Assembly (NCBI RefSeq): GCF_019599405.1
Contig: NZ_RKLQ01000002.1
Location: 310,001 to 374,000, forward strand
Length of the DNA: 64,000 nucleotides
Source: Haloarcula salinisoli
GTDB taxonomy: Archaea; Halobacteriota; Halobacteria; Halobacteriales; Haloarculaceae
Direction: 5' to 3'
In this document: piece after piece, positions 8,456-54,258 of the stretch
Numbering within the stretch: the stretch's first letter is position 1
How the letters are laid out: each line of letters begins with the position of its first letter
Program-made: the position numbers and the translations under genes
Notes under the pieces: model-generated
What the model was told of the DNA's origin: nothing
The model's input: only the letters and a program-made list of their open reading frames with translations
Databases searched by the model: none

Positions 8456-8536
8456 GGCTGTCGTTCGTACGCCGGGGATATGAGCGGTTCGTCAGCGTAG
8501 CGAGTAGTGCTTAGTTTAGCAGAAAGCAACTCAGAG

Positions 8537-8551
8537 AGCCAGAAAGCCCCC
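8537..8551 (+). repeat. Orphan copy of the structured-repeat outer arm
   Basis: AGCCAGAAAGCCCCC matches the outer-arm sequence of the two nested palindromes at 14290-14564 and 53997-54258. It stands alone in the divergent spacer between the isomerase and the methyltransferase. No second arm is present nearby, so it is either a remnant or an independent protein-binding site. Confidence 0.4.
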
Positions 8552-14075: not shown

Positions 14076-14200
14076 GTACGTACATGCGGCCGACGGGAAT
14101 AAGGACCTTCCCCCATCCAGTCGCCGTTCTAGAGGTAGCTGGTTCGGGTGTTTCGAGCCTTGAAAGCCACAACGCACCGCTAGCTCCAACTGATCACGAC

Positions 14201-14313
14201 ACCGCGAACCGCCAGAAAGCCCCGCTAGTAGTCGTCGTCAGAGACACCGCGAACCGCCAGAAAGCCCCGCTAGTAGTCGTAGTCAGAGACACCGCGAACC
14301 GCCAGAAAGCCCC
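14201..14313 (+). repeat. 45-bp tandem repeats, left array (three arms)
   Basis: The arm sequence ACCGCGAACCGCCAGAAAGC and its continuation begin at 14201, 14246 and 14291, an exact 45-base period. The last copy is the left outer arm of the nested palindrome at 14290-14564. Spacers of about 20 bases between arms (GTAGTCGTCGTCAGAGA-like) are nearly identical to one another but differ from those of the right array. No coding potential is evident. Confidence 0.85.
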
Positions 14314-14564
14314 GAGCGGCTACGGTCCCGCGGCTCGCTGCGCGCTTCACTCGCTTCGCTCGCTCCAGTGCTTGCGTCGCCGAGGTTCCCGTAGCCGCTC
14401 GCCCCTTTCAGCCCCACCCATGCCGGTTGGCCAAATAGCGTTGGGTGGGGCTGAAAGGGGCGCTTGGCTAAACGACGGCGGCTGACGCAAGCACCGCAAC
14501 GTAGTGAGGAGCGCAGCGAAGCCCCCGAGTTTAGCCAAGCGGGGCTTTCTGGCGGTTCGCGGTG
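14290..14564. repeat. Nested-palindrome (cloverleaf-like) element, copy 1
   Basis: A 275-base element. Outer arms: perfect 24-bp inverted repeat (14290-14313 with 14541-14564). Left side hairpin: 13-bp stem CGAGCGGCTACGG (14313-14325) with 14389-14401. Central hairpin: perfect 21-bp inverted repeat with core CCCCTTTCAGCCCCACCC (14400-14420 with 14442-14462). Right side hairpin: 13-bp stem CGCTTGGCTAAAC (14461-14473) with 14529-14541. Both side loops contain CGCTGCGC-like and GTGCTTGCGTC boxes in inverted orientation. Together the four helices make a cruciform or cloverleaf. Copy 2 is at 53997-54258. Confidence 0.85.
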
Positions 14565-14744
14565 CCATGCTCAATCGTTGCTAGCGGGGCTTTCTGGCGG
14601 TTCGCAGTGCCATGCTCAATCGTTGCTAGCGGGGCTTTCTGGCGGTTCGCAGTGCCATGCTCAATCGTTGCTAGCGGGGCTTTCTGGCGGTTCGCGGTGC
14701 CATGCTCAATCGTTGCTAGCGGGGCTTTCTGGCGGTTCGCGGTG
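14541..14744 (-). repeat. 45-bp tandem repeats, right array (five arms)
   Basis: The complementary arm GGGGCTTTCTGGCGGTTCGC begins at 14541, 14586, 14631, 14676 and 14721, an exact 45-base period, with near-identical spacers containing CATGCTCAATCGTTGCTAGC. A further degenerate copy follows near 14765-14785. This array is inverted relative to the left one, so the locus is an inverted pair of direct-repeat arrays around the palindrome. The spacers are constant, so it is not a CRISPR array. Confidence 0.85.
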
Positions 14745-14827
14745 CGGGTAACACTCTCCACTGCTAGCGCGGTATTCGGGCGGTTCGAGACAGCGTTCAC
14801 CGAGCGGAAATCGGTCCTCACTGCGTG

Positions 14828-53996: not shown

Positions 53997-54258
53997 ACAG
54001 CCAGAAAGCCCCCGGAGGCTCAGGGGCTGCGACTCGCTGCGCTCCTCGGCCTTCGGCCTGCGGTGCTTACGTCGTCTCGCTCCCTGAGCCTCCGGCCCCT
54101 TTCAGTCCCACCCCGTGGACCAGCCGACCGGGCGGGACTGAAAGGGGCCGGTCGCTCGACGTACGAGACGACGCAAGCACTGCACTGAGCGAACGGAGTG
54201 AGCGAAGGAAGCGCACAGCGAGTCGCAGTAGTCGAGCGACCGGGGGCTTTCTGGCTGT
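53997..54258. repeat. Nested-palindrome (cloverleaf-like) element, copy 2
   Basis: A 262-base element. Outer arms: perfect 19-bp inverted repeat (53997-54015 with 54240-54258). Left side hairpin: 14-bp stem CCGGAGGCTCAGGG (54012-54025) with 54082-54095. Central hairpin: 22-bp stem with one mismatch, core CCCCTTTCAGTCCCACCC (54092-54113 with 54130-54151). Right side hairpin: 13-bp stem CCGGTCGCTCGAC (54148-54160) with 54231-54243. The loops hold the same boxes as copy 1 (CGCTGCGC and GTGCTTACGTC, inverted in the other half). No flanking 45-bp arrays. The rest of 53945-54377 has no gene. Confidence 0.85.

Follow-up and report, generated by a model that had tools for sequence, protein, structure and literature searches.

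Introduction

The closest described counterparts of the element studied here are the bacterial REP sequences with their REPIN dimers and RAYT enzymes, which share with it an intergenic, non-coding imperfect hairpin tagged at one end, and an occurrence both as single units and as inverted dimers in tens to hundreds of copies (PMC3116915, PMC3733652). REP hairpins measure 20–40 nt and carry the tag GTAG or CGTC, and REPIN dimers are regarded as the usual mobile form. CGTC-tagged REPs are of particular relevance, since they too are palindromes that bear a tag but could not be linked to a transposase of their own, although they are short, fall into only four sequence families and come from a study that does not mention haloarchaea (PMC3733652).

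Short, transposase-free elements that cause no target duplication have also been reported from haloarchaea, namely SMR-A and the PATEs of Haloquadratum, and SMR-A insert inside palindromes (PMC3119063). SMRs are described as commonly >95% identical within a type, and the available part of that source makes no reference to covarying stems (PMC3119063). Palindromes inside palindromes, located in non-coding DNA and presumed selfish, are likewise known from Volvox organelles, but these are eukaryotic repeats with units of 11–79 nt, for which the available part of the account mentions neither fixed mismatches nor a tag; the same source cites work on double-hairpin elements of Allomyces organelle DNA (PMC2670323).

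Two nested palindromes in a window of 64,000 nt from the genome of Haloarcula salinisoli (contig NZ_RKLQ01000002.1, positions 310,001 to 374,000 of the forward strand) are here compared with these systems. A more distant parallel is offered by integron attC sites, which are folded single-strand hairpins of variable sequence, conserved shape and unpaired landmarks that are recognised by structure. The likeness to these structure-conserved, variable hairpins is drawn from their description, and neither an integrase nor a cassette array was seen with the haloarchaeal hairpins.

The two palindromes are members of a family of haloarchaeal repeat DNA that is spread class-wide and apparently undescribed, no haloarchaeal description having been found in open-access papers, a scope that misses most subscription papers. 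The original prediction of a haloarchaeal family with genuine covariation, apparently a new one, has stood up. As in REPs, a tagged imperfect hairpin recurs between genes in high copy number, but the hairpins are ~105 nt long, the tag is AGTCCCRCCC, and the Y1 transposase content of the genomes does not follow copy number. Because of the different tag and the missing Y1 co-occurrence, the family is regarded as REP-like in its working yet is not filed as REP. Dimers are common in Haloarcula, whereas the copies in another genus (g25) are single. The archaeal host, the hypervariable paired stems and the nested extra hairpins are found on the haloarchaeal side only; large hairpins, invariant mismatches and layer-wise reshuffling are further features that are unusual against the background of REPs.

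Anatomy of the two copies

The nested architecture initially proposed for positions 14290–14564 and 53997–54258, in which outer arms enclose a central stem between two side hairpins with conserved boxes, was confirmed, and the two copies have the same anatomy (Table 1). The left side hairpin of copy 1 contains the boxes CTCGCTGCGC and GTGCTTGCGTC together with the fixed mismatches described below. Folding energies of both copies lie 13–15 s.d. below those of dinucleotide shuffles, which is weak evidence by itself because any inverted repeat gives such a value.

Two features go beyond the original description, namely a truncated solo end at 8540 and tandem arrays of the outer ends that flank copy 1 on both sides, both of which arrays are missing at the orthologous site in a related genome (G002). 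The 45-bp spacing of such arrays was found again at many other loci, and G002 carries a six-unit 45-bp array at a different element. The solo end at 8540 is not the only one of its kind, several ends breaking off either ahead of the side stem or a few bases inside it.

Table 1. Features of the element and its outer ends in the 64,000-nt window (R2, structure model)
Feature	Position	Strand	Remarks
Copy 1, outer stem, left arm	14290–14313	+	CACCGCGAACCGCCAGAAAGCCCC, with conserved CAGAAAGCCCC at its end
Copy 1, left side hairpin (88 nt)	14314–14401	+	Outer stem arms 14314–14325/14389–14400; R2 match G000:C2:324305-324409
Copy 1, central stem	14402–14460	.	Tag CCCCTTTCAGCCCCACCC 14402–14419, loop, inverse tag 14443–14460
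Copy 1, right side hairpin (80 nt)	14461–14540	-	Stem arms 14462–14473/14529–14540; R2 match G000:C2:324453-324549
Copy 1, outer stem, right arm	14541–14564	-	
Copy 2, outer stem, left arm	53997–54012	+	ACAGCCAGAAAGCCCC
Copy 2, left side hairpin (83 nt)	54013–54095	+	R2 match C2:364004-364103
Copy 2, central stem and loop	54096–54147	.	Tag CCCCTTTCAGTCCCACCC and its inverse
Copy 2, right side hairpin (95 nt)	54148–54242	-	R2 match C2:364140-364251
Copy 2, outer stem, right arm	54243–54258	-	GGGGCTTTCTGGCTGT
Tandem array, left outer end	14198–14287	+	Two additional 45-bp copies, with flank
Tandem array, right outer end	14565–14746	-	Four additional 45-bp copies
Degenerate further outer-end copy	14762–14787	-	Recognisable in G002 too
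Solo truncated outer end, no hairpin	8540–8550 (window 8525–8551)	+	CAGAAAGCCCC; absent in G002

Covariation and fixed mismatches

The covariation originally noticed between the two copies is thin by itself, yet it is borne out by a set of 31 equal-length hairpins. In these, 97.2% of cells are paired, compared to 73.2% when the letters of the 3' arm were shuffled and at most 44% when the partners were slid, and 252 double-sided changes were counted as opposed to 82 (shuffled) and at most 35 (slid), with only 2 one-sided changes. RNAalifold independently arrived at the same helices, with 34 pairs, 23 of which had changed on both sides. Across the source genome and G002, the outer stem is 98% Watson-Crick over 1128 positions, compared to 52–53% when arms were shuffled between copies, and 57 different outer stems occur among 70 hairpins of the source genome. 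Normalised mutual information reaches 0.7–1.0 between stem partners, which lie tens of bases apart (at least 0.9 for 10 of the 12), and 0.05–0.48 between neighbours within one arm.

Mismatches interrupt the stems at set positions. T.T and C.T lie below the inner stem and G.G within it; a box loop of TC/CT follows, and beyond this come C.T and T.T. These positions are the same in the source genome, in G002 and in a class-wide set whose members were chosen by tag only. The folded shape of the hairpins is preserved exactly, built-in mismatches included, although nearly all of the paired bases vary among copies.

Distribution of the family

By approximate count, the Haloarcula salinisoli genome holds about 70 dispersed elements, and 105 half elements were read in it. 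The structure model R2, built from the 31 equal-length hairpins on the register of RNAalifold, located 97 side hairpins. The end motif CAGAAAGCCCCS occurs 136 times compared to 0 in a reversed control, and the tag motif CCCCTTTCAGNCCCACC, with at most 2 mismatches, 101 times compared to 5 in the control. Within the genus, the hairpin was found in 31 of the 32 genomes with R2, with 1–88 copies in 30 of the other 31, and copy number across nearly complete genomes ranges from 1 to 97.

When the search was extended to other haloarchaeal genomes, the hairpin turned up class-wide. Among 197 genomes sampled from the phylum, R2 had matches in 29, haloarchaea without exception, and in none of the ~160 other genomes; strict filters were used, and absence from any single genome is accordingly not firm. 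Hosts recovered by a scan for the tag pattern, again all haloarchaea, include Haloarcula, Halobaculum, Haloparvum, Halorussus, Haladaptatus, Natrinema, Natronococcus, Halobellus, Halonotius and others. No match to a known IS or MITE emerged, and paired side stems are not missing from the copies.

The tagged hairpin as the basic unit

Each unit consists of a ~105-nt imperfect hairpin followed by the conserved tag AGTCCCRCCC, which lies 3' of the hairpin in Haloarcula as well as in other families. The hairpin comprises a 5-bp base, CCCC, a variable outer stem of ~12 bp and shorter stems between the fixed mismatches, with two conserved boxes. Among genera, the base varies in complementary pairs (GAAAG/CTTTC, CAAAG/CTTTG, CGAAG/CTTCG and GGAAG/CTTCC). 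In Haloarcula, two units usually stand head to head via their tags as an inverted dimer with outer arms of its own, and the palindrome is thus two facing units whose tags form the central stem. The description of the element as an inverted dimer therefore applies to Haloarcula, but not to the basic unit, which is a single tagged hairpin, because g25 has the hairpin and the same tag without the CAGAAAGCCCC ends (CRAAGCCCC - hairpin - CCCCTTYG - AGTCCCACCC). The g25 copies are single, with another conserved 3' domain after the tag, and single-hairpin elements occur in the source genome as well (e.g. C2:86908, C2:680490 and C1:599731). In g25, TTATAAA-like, promoter-like sequences were observed in repeats just upstream of the hairpins at L273–L275 and L279.

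Hairpin size ranges from 0 to ~290 nt per side. In the longer halves, double-hairpin cassettes sit at recurrent points, for example after CTCGCTGT or after GTGCTTG, while some halves are without a whole hairpin, which was lost between flanking CCCC repeats. The idea that a basal hairpin was originally empty and received the side hairpins by recent insertion is weakened, since hairpinless halves resemble deletions between these repeats and the spacing from box to tag is nearly fixed class-wide.

Turnover between species and within the genome

Compared to G002, with flanks about 84–96% identical, most elements are found at the same sites. At four sites the element is lacking in G002, one of them that of a solo end; none of these was a cleanly empty site and no target duplication was observed, the element-less G002 sites having diverged intergenic flanks. 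Transposition would appear to be slow relative to hairpin turnover, since the elements mostly keep their sites in both species. Several orthologous pairs have their central loops in common, which argues for common descent of the orthologous elements. At the shared sites, the outer stems differ in all 17 comparable side hairpins, in one of which 8 of 12 bases are still in common. In two cases a stem in one species equals or nearly equals that on the opposite side of the element in the other species.

Within the source genome, the nearest other hairpin is a median of 84% and a maximum of 94% identical; there are consequently no very recent duplicates, which is odd for an actively spreading element. 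Distances between outer stems are almost unrelated to distances between tips (Spearman 0.06), and in only 4 of 70 hairpins is the nearest neighbour by stem also the nearest by tip. Judged from these comparisons, outer stems, inner stems and tips reassort among copies, both arms together. A tentative explanation, to which we give limited credence, is that the hairpins evolve by recombination on folded DNA, in which a crossover would swap everything past it on both arms and so keep the pairing. It is suggested by the almost unrelated stem and tip distances and by the changed stems in 17 of 17 orthologous hairpins whose sites were kept. A similar picture would be expected from symmetric gene conversion under selection.

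Genomic context and candidate partners

With genes called by a simple codon-position heuristic, 65 of the 66 scored elements are intergenic. Of these 65, 10 lie between convergent gene pairs, and a role as transcription terminator is not supported, as such pairs are not enriched. Nor was support obtained for an IS200-type Y1 transposase as partner, since its content does not track copy number, a comparison that concerns co-occurrence and not linkage: PF01797 (Y1_Tnp) gave zero matches in four copy-rich genomes (G001, G007, G008 and G025) and 4–7 matches in four copy-poor ones (G020, G050, G066 and G067). An autonomous copy or a linked enzyme gene was not found at the widely split loci L138, L187, L209, L110, L152, L173 and L208, where the far-apart halves enclose ordinary genes, nested palindromes rich in GC or, at L138, two small membrane-protein ORFs. 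The tag stems of L138 (Halobacteriales archaeon QH_6_64_20, L138:343-1216) are ~860 bp apart, and the two membrane-protein-like ORFs between them are similar to each other and 76 and 118 aa long. A phage or virus origin was also considered and dismissed, with no match in phages and none to the tag pattern in viral contigs. Plasmids yielded few matches, and the neighbours of the plasmid copies are ordinary genes.

Interpretation of the folded hairpins

We favour, with moderate confidence, the reading that the hairpins belong to a REP/REPIN-like non-autonomous DNA family and are recognised in folded form by a trans-acting protein. The functional form of such non-autonomous DNA would be a folded single strand or a cruciform. 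Because the proposed protein would go by shape, boxes and tag and not by the sequence of the stems, many stem sequences would be tolerated, provided that their pairing is that of DNA and the mismatches are retained, and the same protein would move or exchange the hairpins. We infer mobility, a partner enzyme and an exchange mechanism from dispersal, covariation around fixed mismatches, scarce G.T pairs, stem turnover at orthologous sites and nested cassettes, all of them read from sequence. Among the options originally put forward, a single-stranded-DNA transposition substrate fits best, although no transposase is tied to the family.

It is probable that the elements spread and are reshuffled in the form of folded DNA, and that they do not act as RNA. 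A transcribed hairpin or dimer acting as a structured RNA, another of the options originally listed, would account for the very strong covariation, the intergenic position and the TTATAAA-like sequences upstream of some g25 copies. G.T nevertheless makes up only 4 of 1109 outer-stem pairs (0.4%), compared to 16 of 241 (6.6%) in tRNAs within 800 kb read from a related genome (p = 2e-9). A selected RNA helix should pass through G.U, so the near absence of G.T, which departs from ordinary G.U tolerance, speaks against RNA and makes the constraint look DNA-level. With almost no one-sided changes, no excess of convergent gene pairs, nested insertions and deletions, a size range of 0 to ~290 nt and stems replaced at orthologous sites, a role as RNA seems quite unlikely. 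Rfam gave no match to the element at gathering and E-value thresholds, the window yielding a tRNA only, and sub-threshold matches were nearly all generic microRNA hairpins. Paired changes in lockstep, rare one-sided changes and nearly absent G.T could also arise with no function at all, if replication template switching copied arm onto arm and the elements spread by chance recombination. Simple arm-to-arm copying is disfavoured because it should erase the fixed mismatches, whereas the T.T, C.T, G.G and box mismatches are kept in place class-wide; as tag and boxes are moreover conserved in sequence, we consider this explanation very improbable. Taken together, near-absent G.T and fixed mismatches suggest that it is folded DNA that is recognised. 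In the mismatches of the outer stem, A.C outnumbers G.T (23 versus 6, p = 0.002), a hint that the complementary (bottom) strand may be the one folding, though strand-biased deamination would do the same.

It is also conceivable, if rather unlikely, that the cell keeps the hairpins as landmarks for a chromosome protein (gyrase, SMC or a nucleoid factor) and that their spread is incidental. Comparable chromosome-protein binding roles have been proposed for the BIMEs of E. coli, and it would suit such a role that sites are mostly kept between two species while the interior turns over, and that the shape is conserved class-wide and only one of the 32 genomes of the genus is without the hairpin. 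A copy number of 1 to 97 within the genus is, however, too uneven for a general housekeeping site, and hairpins of 0 to ~290 nt per side fit it poorly. Dispersed copies with outer inverted repeats, as in Haloarcula, might instead recall an ordinary MITE, an internal-deletion derivative of a DNA transposon moved via those repeats. This is hardly credible given that the g25 hairpin and tag exist without these outer ends; in addition, no parent transposon was found at the non-exhaustive set of loci examined, and no target duplication was seen, with diverged flanks at the element-less G002 sites.

If the favoured reading of a hairpin recognised as folded DNA is true, the family would represent an overlooked population of tagged hairpin elements spread class-wide through haloarchaea, an archaeal counterpart of REPs, carried by almost all species of the genus and by members of many further genera. 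The nearly 100 paired-stem hairpins with invariant mismatches in one genome would then show with unusual directness which features a protein needs in order to recognise folded DNA. Which enzyme handles folded DNA hairpins, and whether tips recombine as folded units, would become questions testable in laboratory archaea. As a caution, very strong covariation does not have to mean RNA.

Nested cassettes and enlarged elements

The nested cassettes are of several kinds, ~55–65 bp long, with variable self-complementary stems of their own and recurrent insertion points; examples in long halves are found at G000:C1:125420 and G000:C2:392768. On a smaller contig of the source genome, divergent half elements lie ~3 kb apart and enclose a different interior (L078, G000:C5:77350-83650). 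In Haloparvum, two elements (L110:6684-7317 and L152:6630-7200) have a GC-rich centre of several hundred bases that consists of further nested palindromes.
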